A DNA stretch of 64,000 nucleotides from Hwanghaeella grinnelliae (lineage in GTDB: Bacteria > Pseudomonadota > Alphaproteobacteria > UBA8366 > Aestuariispiraceae): positions 310,421-374,420 of the forward strand of contig NZ_SADE01000002.1 of assembly GCF_004005845.1 (NCBI RefSeq). Direction: 5' to 3'. The first letter of the stretch is position 1. Every line of letters begins with the position of its first letter. Shown here piece by piece: positions 3,208-8,105 of the stretch. Both the position numbers and the translations under genes were made by a program. The notes under the pieces were generated by a model. That model searched no databases. It was not told the DNA's origin and saw only the letters and a program-made list of their open reading frames with translations.

Positions 3208-3236
3208 TATGTTGATAATTGAAGGGAGTCTTCGCC

Positions 3237-3479
3237 ATGCCACGAAACACATCGATCTCTTTAGGCGATCACTTTGCCGGGTTCATTGATGCGCAGGTTC
3301 AGTCCGGGCGCTATGGGTCGGCCAGCGATGTCGTCCGTGCGGGATTGCGCTTGCTTGAAGAGCACGAGGCAAAGGTAAGGGCGTTACAGGAAGCGCTAAT
3401 CGTCGGCGAGCGATCGGGCGAGGCGAATCCCTTCGACGGCGAGGCGTTTCTGGAGAAGATGCACGGCAAGCACGGCTAA
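3237..3479 (+). CDS. parD: Type II antitoxin, ParD/CopG family
   Basis: An 80-residue ribbon-helix-helix antitoxin: an N-terminal DNA-binding strand (NTSISLGDHFAGFID), the family signature SGRYGSASDVVRAGLRLLEE (about residues 22-41) and an acidic, flexible C-terminus that would wrap the toxin. The ATG at 3237 has a good ribosome site (GAAGGGAG); a TTG at 3219 in the same frame is not needed. The toxin gene begins 1 bp after this stop, the usual antitoxin-first order, but that toxin is interrupted, so this antitoxin is now probably an orphan. Confidence 0.87.
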   Translation: MPRNTSISLGDHFAGFIDAQVQSGRYGSASDVVRAGLRLLEEHEAKVRALQEALIVGERSGEANPFDGEAFLEKMHGKHG

Positions 3480-3480
3480 G

Positions 3481-3771
3481 ATGGCGCGGCAATATAGATT
3501 CCGGCCTCTTGCGGAAGACGATCTGGAAGAAATCTAGCTCTATACACGCGAGAATTGGTCGCGCGAACAGGCCGACAAATACGTCCGGGACGTCATTTCC
3601 GTTATCGCCGACCTAGCCGTTGGGCGGAAGGAAGGTCGCAAAGTGGACATACGAGAGGGGTATATGAAGCAATCTGCCGGCGCGCACATTGTCTTCTACC
3701 ACGTTGCGGACGACCACTTCGACATCGTCCGTATCCTGCATGGCCGGATGGACGTAGGACGACACCTATAG
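3481..3771 (+). pseudogene. parE: ParE-type toxin, inactivated by an in-frame TAG
   Basis: The frame encodes a 96-residue RelE/ParE-fold toxin (start MARQYRFRPLAEDDLEEI; later KQSAGAHIVFYHV and the C-terminal RILHGRMDVGRHL) but codon 19 at 3535-3537 is TAG. The family usually has an aromatic residue there, and a TGG-to-TAG change would explain it. Everything downstream is intact, so the break looks recent. No plausible restart keeps the N-terminal helix. The toxin would otherwise inhibit gyrase or cleave mRNA. Confidence 0.75.
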
Positions 3772-4134: not shown

Positions 4135-4283
4135 CTCAACTCAAAAAGCGGACATCGGCATCCCTCTTGGCCATAGCTGAACTGACTTGGCCCAAGTAGG
4201 ATAGAAATTAGGTTTGCGGGAGTGCGTTAGAGTAATGCCTGATCTGTCGTACACATTCAAACTTCGTTGGTCCGCAGACAATT

Positions 4284-5714
4284 CTAAGCGCCGTCCTTCA
4301 ACTGCTCGTCCAGCCTGTCTCTCACTCCGGCACAAATGGCCGCCTCCAGGTGACCTCTAAGTCCTTCCTCAGCCTCGTCGTAATAAACGCGGTGGATACT
4401 GAACCGCGCTGCGCTGGCGACTATCGGCGAGATTGAAACGATATCTACGACCTTGCCACCAACTTCGACGTTGATTTGCTGGGGATCGCCGCCTTCTTTG
4501 TTGAGAGGCGTATAGAGCTTTCGGGGATAGTTGTCATAGTAACAAGACTCTGACCAAATTTTCGTTTGCTTCTGTAGATCCTCTGAGACCTTTTTGCATA
4601 CTGCGTTGAGAACTTTCACTCGTGCACTTGCGTCGAGCGTCTTCATCTTCGGGTTGTCGGCTGCTGCGTCATCTGCATGCTTCCAGATGTCATGCATGGA
4701 GTAAAAATTTCGAGAAGCAATGCGAGTGGCAATCGTCTTGATCTCGCTGTCATCGGCTTCTTGAAAGAGATGCAGGGATCCCCAAAACAAACTGTCATCA
4801 AGCAAGAGCGCGTTTTCGAGATTGGCCGGATCTCGGAAGAAGCGAACTAGTGCGTGGTTTGCCGTCAGCCCCGCCTGTTTTTCATCATCCCCCGCGATGC
4901 GTTCGAAAACTCGGCTCATCAAGAGCGCAAACATGTACTCAATCCCGCGCGTACGCTTATGGAGATAGAGGGTCGGATACAACTGGAACAGCGTGACGGT
5001 GAATTGCTCAAGAGAGACGTAGGCTTTGCTGTCCACGTAGAGGAAGCGGCCGTTATCGCCATCGCTGACTTGGAAATTCCGCATGAGCCAGTCCAGGTCA
5101 ATGCCGCCCGATGAAACCCCAGCGAAGTAGGGGTCGCGCTTTGCGTAGTCCAGACGATCAGCGTCGAGTTGGCCCGACACCAGTGATGTGTATATGCACT
5201 GCTTGTCCTTCTTAGAAATCATGTTCGCCACCATTTTGGGGAACCCAACGCCGCCCATTTTTTCGAGCGCACAGCCAATGGACGAATCTATGATAATCTG
5301 AGGGCTGACTTTCTCGTGGTCGACTGCGGCCATGAGCGGGCTGTCTTTCAGACCCGGATTGCGTATCGCATAAAGCCCCATCGCCTTTTCGAAGGCATGG
5401 CTGAACATTCCGTGGCCGATGTCGTGTAGGAGAGCCGCGGCGAGGCATGCCTTACCTTGTTGCGACCATTCACCCCTTTTTACGTCGGGCTCGACAATCG
5501 CCAGCAAACGTTTCGCCACGGCATAAACACCCAACGAATGAGCAAACCGTGAATGAGTGGCAGATGGGAATACGTGGTCAGAGAAGCCAAGTTGCTTAAC
5601 GCGCCGCAACCGCTGAAAGTACGGATTCGAAAGCATGTTTTTGAGCTCAAGCTCAAACTGTCCCTCAAACTCGATCGAACCGTGGATCGGGTCCTTGATC
5701 ATCTTTGTCTTCAT
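4284..5714 (-). CDS. HD-domain phosphohydrolase (SAMHD1/dNTPase-like)
   Basis: A 476-residue metal-dependent phosphohydrolase of the HD superfamily. The active-site set is visible: RFAHSLGV (His59), LLHDIGHGMFSH (His97, Asp98, His101, His106) and SGQLDADRLDYAKRD (Asp184, Asp189). The region FQRLRRVKQLG before the first His and the RLDY..RD motif are typical of dGTPase/SAMHD1-type dNTP triphosphohydrolases, so hydrolysis of (deoxy)nucleotides is likely. The C-terminal 250 residues are not assignable. The start has a GAGGAAG ribosome site. It lies 36-46 bp downstream of the radical SAM gene on the same strand, so the two are probably co-transcribed. Codon use is less GC-rich than the core. Bacterial dNTPases of this fold can act in antiphage defence; here that is inference. 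Confidence 0.85.
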   Translation of the reverse strand: MKTKMIKDPIHGSIEFEGQFELELKNMLSNPYFQRLRRVKQLGFSDHVFPSATHSRFAHSLGVYAVAKRLLAIVEPDVKRGEWSQQGKACLAAALLHDIGHGMFSHAFEKAMGLYAIRNPGLKDSPLMAAVDHEKVSPQIIIDSSIGCALEKMGGVGFPKMVANMISKKDKQCIYTSLVSGQLDADRLDYAKRDPYFAGVSSGGIDLDWLMRNFQVSDGDNGRFLYVDSKAYVSLEQFTVTLFQLYPTLYLHKRTRGIEYMFALLMSRVFERIAGDDEKQAGLTANHALVRFFRDPANLENALLLDDSLFWGSLHLFQEADDSEIKTIATRIASRNFYSMHDIWKHADDAAADNPKMKTLDASARVKVLNAVCKKVSEDLQKQTKIWSESCYYDNYPRKLYTPLNKEGGDPQQINVEVGGKVVDIVSISPIVASAARFSIHRVYYDEAEEGLRGHLEAAICAGVRDRLDEQLKDGA

Positions 5715-5750
5715 TTATCTTCCTCAATCAAAAAATGCATTATTCAAATC

Positions 5751-7160
5751 TCAGCCCTGCGTGGCTTCAAAGTTGACGGTATCTTTAACTGTGAATGGCA
5801 GTAAGGCAGGATCGGAAGCCGCCACATCACAATCGAAGTCCTTCCGACTGTAATCGCGTGGGTAGTAAGAGAAGCTCTTCAGCGCAAAGTATGCATCTTG
5901 GTCCATAAAATGGCGGCTAATGGCGAGACTCGCCGCCTCTGCTTCTTCTGCGGGGAACTCCGGGCTCAGATGCATAGCTGTGATGCCGGACGATGCAGCA
6001 GCGCGTTTATTGACCGGACGCGCCCCGAGTCTTCGCCACTCCTCTATCAGAGCGTCGGCCGTCTTGGGCGGCCCGTACGCGAGCACTGGGCCCACAGAAA
6101 CGCCCGCGACTGCATCTCGCCGATCATCGAGCCACGCGGTGGTCTCTTCAAGGGTTTCTTGCGTCTCACCGGCATAGAGCAGCACATTAACCTTGGCCTT
6201 CACTCCGTTGTCACGGCAAGCCACCAAGAGATCGGAAGCCGCAGAAAGATAGCGTTGAGGATCATCCGCCTTCTTCATTGCCAGGATTTGCTGAGGAGAG
6301 GCAGCCTCGAGCCCGAGGTCGATGACTCGCAGCCCCGCCCAGGCGAGCCGCTCAAGGGTTTGGGGTTTCATCACATCGACTCGGGTTTCCGTACGCCATG
6401 AGATATCAAGGCCAAGTTTGTGCATCTCTTTTGCGAAACCAGCCGCCCATCGGGCATTCGGAAGAAACATCGATGATTGGAGGTAAGGGCGGATTTCCTC
6501 GCCGTCGTATTGCTCGCGGACACGAGCCATCGATGCCGCCAATGCGATACCGTTGCCAAGTTTTTCAACCTTTATGTCACGCTCTTCACAGAACACACAG
6601 CCCATGCCGCAGCCACGCGACGCCTCAATGCTCGGTTGATACCTGCGAAATCCATCCACCAAGCGATGGTTGAGTGTGAAACCCGGCGTTGGCTCGGCGA
6701 CGCGGCTGAGTACGGGGCTTTCCGTCAGGAGCCGCTCGATAACGCCTTCGCTGAGGCCAGGGGCGAGCACATTGGCTTCCGGCAAAATGCCTCGAAGCCA
6801 TTGAGGGTCGGGGCCAACCACCCAACGGCCTCCTACCACGATCCGACAGTTGGGGTCGGAAGCTCTAGCGAGCCTGCAAAACGCCTGAGCCCAAGAAAGG
6901 GCGTAATAGCTCGGAATCGAGATCATAAGCGGGTAGGTCGATGGAAATTGACCGGACTCCCTCAACTGCCCGAACACCTCTGCGGGAGTGCGATGCTCCC
7001 CGTGGAGCAGAGCTACGCAATAACCAGACCGTTCGAGTTTGGTGGCTAGAGACAGTGCGCCATAGTTTAAGTACAGTTGACGGCGAGCCAATGCATGGTC
7101 CCGCTTTTTGGGAGAGAGCATTCCAGCAGAAACGAAAGTGACAATATTTGATCTATACAT
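5751..7160 (-). CDS. Radical SAM protein with N-terminal B12-binding-like domain
   Basis: About 469 residues. A Rossmann-like N-terminal part (about 1-150, with RIVVGGRWVVG) resembles the domain that precedes the barrel in B12-dependent radical SAM enzymes, but the classic DxHxxG cobalamin motif is not seen. The radical SAM core starts at SIEASRGCGMGCVFC: the three cysteines (about residues 184, 188, 191; CxxxCxxC) would hold a 4Fe-4S cluster cleaving S-adenosylmethionine. The barrel continues through WRTETRVDVM, VIDLGLEAASPQQI and KVNVLLYAGET. A GTG at 7172 is in frame, but the ATG at 7160 has a better-placed GGCGG site. The substrate is unknown. Its partners, an HD phosphohydrolase downstream and a nucleotide kinase divergent, suggest nucleotide chemistry. 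Confidence 0.82.
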   Translation of the reverse strand: MYRSNIVTFVSAGMLSPKKRDHALARRQLYLNYGALSLATKLERSGYCVALLHGEHRTPAEVFGQLRESGQFPSTYPLMISIPSYYALSWAQAFCRLARASDPNCRIVVGGRWVVGPDPQWLRGILPEANVLAPGLSEGVIERLLTESPVLSRVAEPTPGFTLNHRLVDGFRRYQPSIEASRGCGMGCVFCEERDIKVEKLGNGIALAASMARVREQYDGEEIRPYLQSSMFLPNARWAAGFAKEMHKLGLDISWRTETRVDVMKPQTLERLAWAGLRVIDLGLEAASPQQILAMKKADDPQRYLSAASDLLVACRDNGVKAKVNVLLYAGETQETLEETTAWLDDRRDAVAGVSVGPVLAYGPPKTADALIEEWRRLGARPVNKRAAASSGITAMHLSPEFPAEEAEAASLAISRHFMDQDAYFALKSFSYYPRDYSRKDFDCDVAASDPALLPFTVKDTVNFEATQG

Positions 7161-7205
7161 TCGGTCCGCCACTTAGAGTTAGAAAGCAATACATAGGGGG
7201 ATAAC

Positions 7206-7826
7206 ATGCCCTTTATAAGTATCGAAGGCATCGATGGCAGCGGAAAAACATTGCAGAGCCGACTTCTAGCCGCCGCTCTTCGCAAGATAGATATTAAGGT
7301 GATTGAGACGAAGGAGCCGGACCGCGGTTCTATCGGTGCCGAAATCCGTTCGATCTTGGTGACGGATCGGACCGCGAAGCTTTCTCCACTTGAGGAACTT
7401 CTGTTGATTTCAGCGGCAAGAGTGAGCCATTTGGACGGCGTGATCCGGCCAGCCCTCGACGCCTCTGAATGGGTCGTCTGTGACCGCTTCCTTGATTCAA
7501 CATACGCGTTTCAGGTGCATAAAACAGACGTGCCCGAGCGGCTCTACAAGGAGATTTCATCTGTGGTTGTAGGGCAAACCATGCCAGATCTGACGTTCAT
7601 TTTGGACATCGACCCAGTGACAGCACTCGAAAGACGCTCTCAACGCGGCGAGGCTGCCGATCGGGATCCTTCAGAAGCCACACGGGACTTTTCCCGGATT
7701 CGGGAGGGCCTGCTAGTGGTGGCGAAGCGGTATCCCGAAAGGTGCCGCGTGATTGATGCAAAGCGCCCGGCCAGTGAGGTTGCCGACCTGATCCTTTTCG
7801 AATTGAAACGGTCTACTTTACTGTGA
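7206..7826 (+). CDS. tmk: Thymidylate-kinase-like P-loop nucleotide kinase
   Basis: A 206-residue protein, the normal length for dTMP kinase, which phosphorylates dTMP to dTDP with ATP. The Walker A loop GIDGSGKT is at residues 8-15, the DRF-type base-binding motif at about 98 (VVCDRFLDSTYAFQ), and a lid-like segment at about 140 (RRSQRGEAADRDP). Start ATG with a strong AGGGGGAT site. The gene is not in the usual holB/tmk setting and its base composition is lower in GC than the core, so it is probably an accessory paralogue with a specialised substrate rather than the housekeeping enzyme. It begins only 33-45 bp from the divergent radical SAM gene. Confidence 0.85.
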   Translation: MPFISIEGIDGSGKTLQSRLLAAALRKIDIKVIETKEPDRGSIGAEIRSILVTDRTAKLSPLEELLLISAARVSHLDGVIRPALDASEWVVCDRFLDSTYAFQVHKTDVPERLYKEISSVVVGQTMPDLTFILDIDPVTALERRSQRGEAADRDPSEATRDFSRIREGLLVVAKRYPERCRVIDAKRPASEVADLILFELKRSTLL

Positions 7827-7833
7827 CGGAGCG

Positions 7834-7850
7834 GGTTAAGGTGACAATCC
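7834..7850 (+). repeat. GTGACAG-type motif, copy at right edge of the accessory region
   Basis: GGTTAAGGTGACAATCC, preceded by TACTGTGACGG at about 7819-7829, repeats the GTGAC/TTAAGGTGAC theme of 2228-2258. It lies about 40 bp upstream of the Y1 transposase relic, the position expected for a transposase-associated motif. Confidence 0.4.
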
Positions 7851-7890
7851 ACTATATAGATTTTTGCAACGGTCCGCGGCATTGAAGGGT

Positions 7891-7932
7891 ATGGCCAGAC
7901 TATCCCGCGTCGTTCTTCCCGGGTTGCTGTAA
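7891..7932 (+). pseudogene. N-terminal relic of a REP-associated (Y1/IS200-like) transposase
   Basis: The 13 codons MARLSRVVLPGLL followed by TAA match the very conserved start of REP-associated tyrosine transposases (MARLxRxVxPGLPHHVTQRG). The protein breaks off before the HUH motif, so only the start of the gene survives. Its association with GTGAC motifs in the same region supports the reading. The match is short, so chance cannot be fully excluded. Confidence 0.55.
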
Positions 7933-8029
7933 GAGTTTGTTTTATTGGAGTGTCGAACCGCCAACGCGGTGTGTTCGCCTAAAAGGCGCGGCGTGATTTT
8001 CTGCCTGCACTTAATATCTTATGAAGATT

Positions 8030-8105
<76 letters not shown>

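Follow-up and report, generated by a model that had tools for sequence, protein, structure and literature searches.

A 64,000-nucleotide stretch of the Hwanghaeella grinnelliae genome (NZ_SADE01000002.1, positions 310,421 to 374,420; hereafter the window) contains three neighboring genes that encode an HD-domain phosphohydrolase (HD), a radical SAM enzyme (rSAM), and a thymidylate kinase-family nucleotide kinase (TMK). A sequence-only reading of the window had proposed that these genes form a candidate nucleotide-acting system, and all three open reading frames (ORFs) were intact and stood side by side, as it had reported. The features of the locus are as follows.

4284..5714, minus strand: HD-domain phosphohydrolase, 476 amino acids (aa), by homology an EF1143/SAMHD1-like putative deoxynucleoside triphosphate (dNTP) hydrolase (dNTPase); partner gene
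5751..7160, minus strand: radical SAM enzyme, 469 aa, with a predicted B12-type Rossmann N-terminal domain and a CX3CX2C barrel; ORF open upstream to a GTG at 7172
7161..7205, no strand: divergent spacer of 45 nucleotides (nt), from the rSAM start codon to the TMK start codon; conserved rSAM start
7206..7826, plus strand: nucleotide kinase of the thymidylate kinase family, 206 aa; the genome carries another tmk elsewhere

The HD gene lies downstream of rSAM on the same minus strand after a gap of 36 nt, TMK is divergent from rSAM, and the three genes are not a single operon. Because relatives start likewise, ATG 7160 is more likely the rSAM start than GTG 7172. The divergent spacer measured 39–55 nt in 22 other loci (23 of 28 pairs were counted, since L016, L022, L024, L030, and L034 own the pair but were not parsed). 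The 45 nt in the window have to hold both ribosome-binding sites, and the regulation of TMK and rSAM may therefore be shared. No sigma-70-like promoter was found in positions 4200–8000, spacer included, although the sigma-70 consensus is not informative for this host.

The TMK-rSAM pair is a recurrent unit and the core of the module. A pattern scan across 84,980 species, each represented by a single genome, yielded at least 26 rSAM loci (a lower bound), and a divergent TMK adjoined rSAM in 22 of these 26, with hosts among the Alpha-, Beta-, and Gammaproteobacteria. In addition, a tblastn search of 72,556 plasmid records returned nine records, five of them with an rSAM at 60–80% identity (Rhizobium, Sphingomonas, two Burkholderia glumae, and Pseudomonas), and the divergent kinase was present in all five. 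The enzyme was rare within the class, as the genome of the window was the only one of 289 to carry it. Several loci are near-copies of one another (L014/L015, L017/L018, L026/L027/L037, and L006/L007). The four genome loci without TMK comprised an rSAM standing alone (L033), an rSAM with a dGTPase (L035), a broken rSAM frame (L036), and a fragment (L039). The last three came from three Pseudomonas species, with rSAM intact, frame-broken, or fragmentary beside the same neighboring gene family, and these copies may mark an insertion hot spot that is decaying. In a Nostoc plasmid (L009, 5309–7413), a P-loop protein resembling nucleoside monophosphate kinases was followed by an rSAM of 27% identity; the pair was flanked by annotated DNA methyltransferase and helicase genes, surroundings that we take to be reminiscent of DISARM.

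The partners of this core changed from locus to locus. An HD of the window type was present in eight of the 26 genome loci (L014–L019, L030, and L032) and a dGTPase in three (L020, L022, and L035), giving a dNTPase of one of two families in 11 of 26. A STAND-TPR protein of approximately 900 aa was found in 13 (L014, L015, L020, L023–L029, L031, L037, and L038); the STAND frame was split in L025, and the HD of L015 was cut by the contig end. STAND occurred without a dNTPase in ten loci, a dNTPase without STAND in eight, and both together in three, so that 21 of 26 had at least one. The five partner-less loci were L021, whose contig ends just past TMK, L033, L034, L036, and L039; in L034, a DEDDh exonuclease adjoins the TMK-rSAM pair. 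When 559 ORFs of at least 80 aa from 32 loci were clustered, only rSAM, TMK, STAND, and HD were common to more than four loci. Recurrent co-localization, on whose absence the sequence-only reading said its proposal would fall, was thus observed for TMK beside rSAM and, less often, for a dNTPase. The proposal stood in part: the TMK-rSAM pair recurs, but HD is not constant and represents one of the three partner types.

The distribution of partners was compared with an rSAM tree. The window fell in a starred clade of eight rows, all HD-bearing (support 100/99), and a starred clade of three (100/100) consisted of the dGTPase loci L020, L022, and plasmid locus L004, whose dGTPase exceeded the TIGR01353 cut-off (310.8 bits against 152.35). 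An HD locus (L032) and a dGTPase locus (L035) were placed elsewhere, separate from the main HD and dGTPase clades; the HD of L032 lies on the other strand and is 37% identical to that of the window. The first tree had 29 rows (24 plus five from plasmids, with L007, L036, L037, and L039 excluded) and labeled HD and STAND plus HD apart, which inflated HD to three changes. With L009 also excluded (28 rows) and these labels pooled, HD and dGTPase each showed two changes.

The STAND partner contains NB-ARC and TPR domains. The copy in L014 (6545–9283) is encoded on the TMK strand directly downstream of TMK and has homologues in 12 other genome loci; the L005 copy had no PADLOC match. The first 200 residues (model with a predicted local distance difference test score, pLDDT, of 85.2) matched MspJI (Z 10.0), AspBHI (Z 9.6), and Avs4 (Z 8.5). 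These scores are modest, and a Foldseek search by itself returned no match to this region with an E value under 0.016. Residues D59 and E70xS72 are conserved. Together with the modest fold matches, they suggest that the N-terminus is probably a PD-(D/E)xK-type putative nuclease domain in which the lysine position is altered.

The identification of the second gene as a radical SAM enzyme was borne out, with rSAM scoring 35.2 bits against Pfam Radical_SAM PF04055 (cut-off 29.5) and CX3CX2C present in 24 of 24 aligned rows, including the window. In an AlphaFold2 model (pLDDT 86.5, predicted template modeling score 0.87), residues 4–460 matched AprD4 best among solved structures (Z 25.0, root-mean-square deviation 3.5, 386 aligned), followed by OxsB (Z 23.4, root-mean-square deviation 3.9, 399 aligned) and then MgmA and TsrM. 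The span of these matches indicates a predicted B12-type Rossmann domain fused to the CX3CX2C barrel. The alignment to OxsB covered OxsB residues 117–633 only, and the extra N-terminal domain of OxsB is lacking. A sequence profile of 24 rSAMs also placed AprD4 at the top of the solved structures (E 2.6e-5), and OxsB was not among its nine matches to E 1. AprD4 has a B12-type domain and is not known to contain cobalamin. Viperins superposed on the barrel only (Z 10.8, 203 aligned, model residues 170–435), and rSAM gave no match to the curated viperin model TIGR04278 at a limit of E 0.001, so a viperin identity was ruled out by sequence. Viperins are not known to have a B12-type N-terminal domain. 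The description of rSAM as no canonical viperin, with a B12-like N-terminal domain, accordingly fits both the missing viperin-model match and the AprD4/OxsB-type fold.

The kinase belongs to the dTMP kinase family (TIGR00041, 158.6 bits against a cut-off of 83.25), in line with its earlier designation as TMPK-like. The P-loop and the DR(F/Y)..ST.A.Q motif were present in 18 of 18 aligned module TMKs and in the other tmk of the same genome (19 of 19 rows), and R72, S98, T99, and Q103, shared with that tmk, were invariant across the 19 rows. These shared motifs and residues make a dTMP-like substrate plausible for TMK. The other tmk, on a different contig (C1), was taken as the housekeeping gene, and the window TMK is therefore an extra copy.

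HD scored 34.9 bits against Pfam HD (cut-off 22) and matched E. faecalis EF1143 (2o6i) over residues 4–439 (E 4.7e-42); its match to SAMHD1 lay mainly over residues 4–110. By sequence it is an EF1143/SAMHD1-type putative dNTPase, consistent with the SAMHD1-like assignment of the sequence-only reading, and not a classical Dgt dGTPase (TIGR01353, 29.6 bits against 152.35). Residues R56, H59, H97, D98, H101, H106, H133, and D186 were identical in nine of nine aligned rows, including the window, and H59, H97, D98, and D186 form the H..HD..D metal site. The catalytic positions of SAMHD1 and its allosteric residues D137, Q142, and R145 are named in the sections of PMC8177086 used here. R56, H59, H97, D98, H101, H106, and D186 were identical at the aligned catalytic positions, and H133 was assigned as the H233 equivalent by motif. 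At the allosteric site, Q34 and R37 are kept, the position of SAMHD1 N119 is K7, and that of D137 is S29, the SAMHD1 chain in the alignment itself showing Asn at the D137 position. The same sections describe EF1143 as depleting dNTPs and as activated by nucleotides (PMC8177086). In a survey, HD relatives were found in four of 385 class genomes, one being the window's own and the other three 35–41% identical, and in one of 43 order genomes, again the window's own.

A second, parallel operon also contained HD. Its genes encode, in order, a different rSAM, a DEDDh exonuclease, an AAA_28 P-loop protein, and an HD 59–62% identical to that of the window (L010–L013, on plasmids of Sinorhizobium, Rhizobium, and Labrenzia). 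HD matches occurred in 42 plasmid records, 12 of them at 60–80% identity, and the four that were inspected all carried this operon. No curated family matched its rSAM, which we take to be SPL-like by its motif; the enzyme was present in one of 385 class genomes. A genome locus with a reach of 4 kb (L076) showed the first three genes, rSAM, exonuclease, and kinase-like protein. The exonuclease was 36% identical over 154 aa to that of L034. Because this operon pairs HD with another rSAM, the combination of rSAM, kinase-like protein, and HD was assembled with two rSAM families. The TMK-rSAM locus L004 and the second-operon locus L010 both adjoin an annotated 7-cyano-7-deazaguanine synthase, accompanied by an XRE regulator and a PIN or DNA-binding protein, possibly another defense gene set.

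The neighbors of the module were scanned with PADLOC at E 1e-15. It covered 89 ORFs of 300–700 aa, drawn from 21 of the 22 genome loci that bear TMK (all except L037); also excluded were the four TMK-less loci, the loci on plasmids, ORFs that were longer or cut by an edge, and a near-duplicate in L027. The GajA and GajB models of Gabija matched three members each, and SoFic matched in L014. Ten of the 89 were scanned singly, with matches to LmuB (L026), PD-Lambda-5_A (L028), a type II restriction-enzyme model (L017), and TniQ (L016). In total, 198 PADLOC families matched, which is not a gene number, as they overlap heavily and many models match one protein. The 20 control ORFs from positions 9–64 kb of the window had no PADLOC match; this control represents one genome only, and one of 21 ORFs, at the window edge, was excluded. 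By record annotation, three of the four inspected second-operon plasmid loci had Shedu, HEPN/Toprim, CBASS-like, or ABC-three-component neighbors. Overall, we regard a defense role of the module as likely.

The composition, selection, and origin of the locus were also analyzed. In 1-kb windows, the guanine-plus-cytosine content was 50.5–59% over 2–7.5 kb and 59.5–69% over 8.5–20 kb, in agreement with the lower content that had been noted. Ratios of nonsynonymous to synonymous substitution rates (dN/dS) against relatives were 0.07–0.11 for rSAM (three pairs, dS up to 2.4), 0.12–0.15 for HD (two pairs, one further pair saturated), and 0.26–0.30 for TMK (two pairs, one further pair saturated), and these low values indicate that the three coding sequences are under purifying selection. 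The toxin-antitoxin relic described nearby was recovered at 3219–3771 as an intact ParD-type antitoxin and, after it, a ParE-like frame interrupted by a stop after 18 codons. The reading had also placed the genes at a tRNA in support of horizontal acquisition. A tRNA-Ala does lie at 8030–8105, but as an argument for acquisition it is weak: its 3′ end was single-copy in the window (up to three mismatches), and the exact 22-base pattern occurred once genome-wide. A tRNA-integrated island was consequently dropped, as neither a duplicate of the tRNA 3′ end nor a repeated att site was seen. A phage origin was likewise rejected, because rSAM was not found in 50,697 phage records or, by pattern scan, in viral_contigs; this negative result is neutral with respect to the function proposed below. 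A 210-aa protein encoded at 2329–2961 appeared membrane-like by eye and, within the thresholds applied, matched nothing in Pfam, NCBIfam, PADLOC, or PHROG.

We propose that the three genes constitute one instance of a mobile anti-phage module in which rSAM alters a deoxynucleotide, TMK activates the product, and HD clears dNTPs, an account that we judge to be evenly balanced between right and wrong. Within it, nucleotide-modifying chemistry by rSAM is somewhat favored. An rSAM of the AprD4/OxsB fold type would modify a nucleotide by radical chemistry, with a deoxynucleotide monophosphate that TMK accepts as the most likely substrate, and TMK would phosphorylate the product toward the analogue triphosphate. 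Phage DNA synthesis would then incorporate this triphosphate or be blocked by the analogue. The HD dNTPase, or the dGTPase elsewhere, would lower natural dNTPs, destroy the analogue in uninfected cells, or do both, and the STAND-TPR protein of sister copies would add or replace an infection-sensing nuclease. The presence of a kinase in the module suggests that the rSAM product acts inside the cell as an activated nucleotide. We infer the action of rSAM on a nucleotide, the specificity of the kinase in vivo, the role of HD, the trigger, and the anti-phage activity itself.

Several results weigh against this proposal. No dNTPase was found in 15 of the 26 genome loci, L035 lacks TMK, and L033 has neither TMK nor a partner within 10 kb on each side. 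The HD relatives at 35–41% identity have no relative of either rSAM, TMK, the exonuclease, or the kinase in their flanks (8 kb on each side for L040 and approximately 1.5 kb on each side for L072–L074). In the rSAM tree, the placement of L032, L033, and L035, which sit on long branches, is uncertain, and the partner changes may reflect losses or replacements besides gains. The Pfam B12-binding match of rSAM was weak (E 0.053), which leaves cobalamin binding putative, and its best curated sequence match, far under the cut-off, was ApyD, a peptide-modifying enzyme. Furthermore, the substrate of rSAM is not readable from the fold, because the fold group includes enzymes acting on aminoglycosides, tryptophan, protein, and RNA. 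Among the neighbors, six of the ten ORFs scanned singly had no PADLOC match, and the window locus itself has no recognized defense neighbor, only ParD and the early-stopped ParE-like frame.

Other explanations were weighed against the same evidence. HD or the dGTPase might empty the dNTP pools on infection, with TMK and rSAM serving as sensor, brake, or antidote, such that TMK would rebuild dTDP and dTTP and rSAM would make a small regulator of HD. The intact catalytic residues of HD and the occurrence of two dNTPase families in separate parts of the rSAM tree are consistent with such starvation, another effector could bind where K7 and S29 differ from SAMHD1, and an anti-phage dGTPase family exists in NCBIfam, which the dGTPases of L004 and L035 match below the cut-off. 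However, dNTPases are not among the constant members, and loci with STAND but no dNTPase are just as frequent (10 of 26, compared with eight that have a dNTPase only and three that have both), which leaves this explanation rather unlikely. A nearly constant two-gene core with changing partners is also the layout expected of a signal and its effectors. Here, rSAM and TMK would make a messenger, a modified nucleotide, that controls the HD allosteric site, the dGTPase, or the STAND nuclease, and both EF1143 and SAMHD1 are under nucleotide control according to the sections of PMC8177086 used. Against this, the dGTPase and STAND proteins share no obvious binding domain, and no ligand is known. In STAND proteins, it is usually the C-terminal repeats that sense ligands, which also counts against a nucleotide messenger, and we consider it quite unlikely.

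It is improbable that rSAM modifies a protein, peptide, or tRNA with TMK as a supply or repair accessory. Resemblance to ApyD and HpnJ by sequence, below cut-off, and to MiaB/RimO-type enzymes by fold would fit that role, whereas a dedicated deoxynucleoside monophosphate kinase with a dNTPase points to nucleotides, and the ORF clustering gave no shared family beyond the four named above, although precursor peptides shorter than 80 aa would escape it. That the genes are unrelated neighbors gathered in a defense island is highly improbable. The distant HD relatives with neither rSAM nor kinase nearby and the TMK-less loci L033 and L035 would agree with a chance gathering, but the co-occurrence in 22 of 26 loci across three proteobacterial classes, with a spacer of conserved length where measured, already refutes it for the TMK-rSAM pair.

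Returning to the nucleotide-analogue proposal, an extended form describes an antiviral pathway distinct from viperin, in which an AprD4/OxsB-type enzyme would make an altered thymidylate-like nucleotide, a dedicated TMK would activate it, and a SAMHD1-like dNTPase would clear its natural competitors, leaving the phage polymerase to use the analogue. This pathway would have arisen on two or more occasions from different radical enzymes and kinases, the second operon being one of them, and the DEDDh exonuclease of that operon would protect the host by removing terminators; we advance this form tentatively, as a possibility that falls short of an even chance. If true, it would join viperin as a second way in which radical enzymes produce antiviral nucleotides, at the level of DNA rather than RNA, and it would yield novel nucleotide analogues together with the kinase that activates them and the enzyme that clears them. 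One scheme would then explain why SAMHD1-like dNTPases, dGTPases, and STAND nuclease-like proteins alternate around a TMK-rSAM core.

No description of the TMK-rSAM module, and no paper on the name PDC-M51, was found in the open-license literature. PDC-M51, a PADLOC candidate, is the nearest catalogued pair and likewise consists of adjacent rSAM and TMPK-like kinase genes. In L041, the one locus inspected of the 30 listed, which matches PDC-M51A in full (2e-170), the gene for a 415-aa B12-type rSAM is immediately followed by that for a 191-aa dTMP-kinase-like protein. As a probe, PDC-M51A matched 89 of 398 genomes at 1e-20 and is too permissive for counts. The window TMK matched PDC-M51B (1.9e-12), whereas the window rSAM had no PDC-M51A match at 0.01, and the rSAM of its relative L005 reached 9.5e-5. 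The PDC-M51 genes are co-directional, unlike the divergent window pair, and no HD, dGTPase, or STAND gene was present in the 4.2 kb of L041. The module is therefore a distant variant of the PDC-M51 pair and not a member. DefensePredictor has validated E. coli systems with nucleotide-acting domains, such as a 5-hydroxymethyluracil kinase and a thymidylate synthase, and the word "radical" is absent from its main text (PMC13092281).

Among characterized enzymes, AprD4, the apramycin 1,2-diol dehydratase, is the best match of rSAM both by fold and by sequence, but it acts on the aminoglycoside paromamine and is not a defense gene. HD shares its catalytic residues with EF1143 and SAMHD1, is homologous to EF1143 over most of its length, and differs from SAMHD1 at two allosteric-site positions (K7 and S29); HD is moreover found as a module partner. 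Avs4-type STAND nucleases resemble the partner of sister loci, with a PD-(D/E)xK-like N-terminus, NB-ARC, and TPR, a protein that is absent from the window locus. Prokaryotic viperins are antiviral radical SAM enzymes acting on nucleotides, some of them beside a kinase, and rSAM shares only the barrel with them. In the sections of PMC11249213 used, viperins make chain-terminating nucleotides, and approximately 15% of the bacterial genes adjoin a CMPK2-like kinase. The OxsA-OxsB pair of Bacillus megaterium, like the module, joins a B12-fold rSAM to an HD phosphohydrolase. In the part of PMC13331322 considered, the four-domain OxsB contracts the sugar of dAMP, dADP, or dATP and requires the HD phosphohydrolase OxsA, which dephosphorylates the product for export, the two enzymes leading to antiviral oxetanocin A; that part reports no kinase in the pair, whereas the window module has TMK. 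OxsB is longer than the window rSAM, with its extra N-terminal domain, and OxsA is of a different HD type from the window HD. By analogy, the module would combine pieces of OxsA-OxsB and of viperin, namely an OxsB-type radical enzyme, a thymidylate kinase, and a dNTPase.

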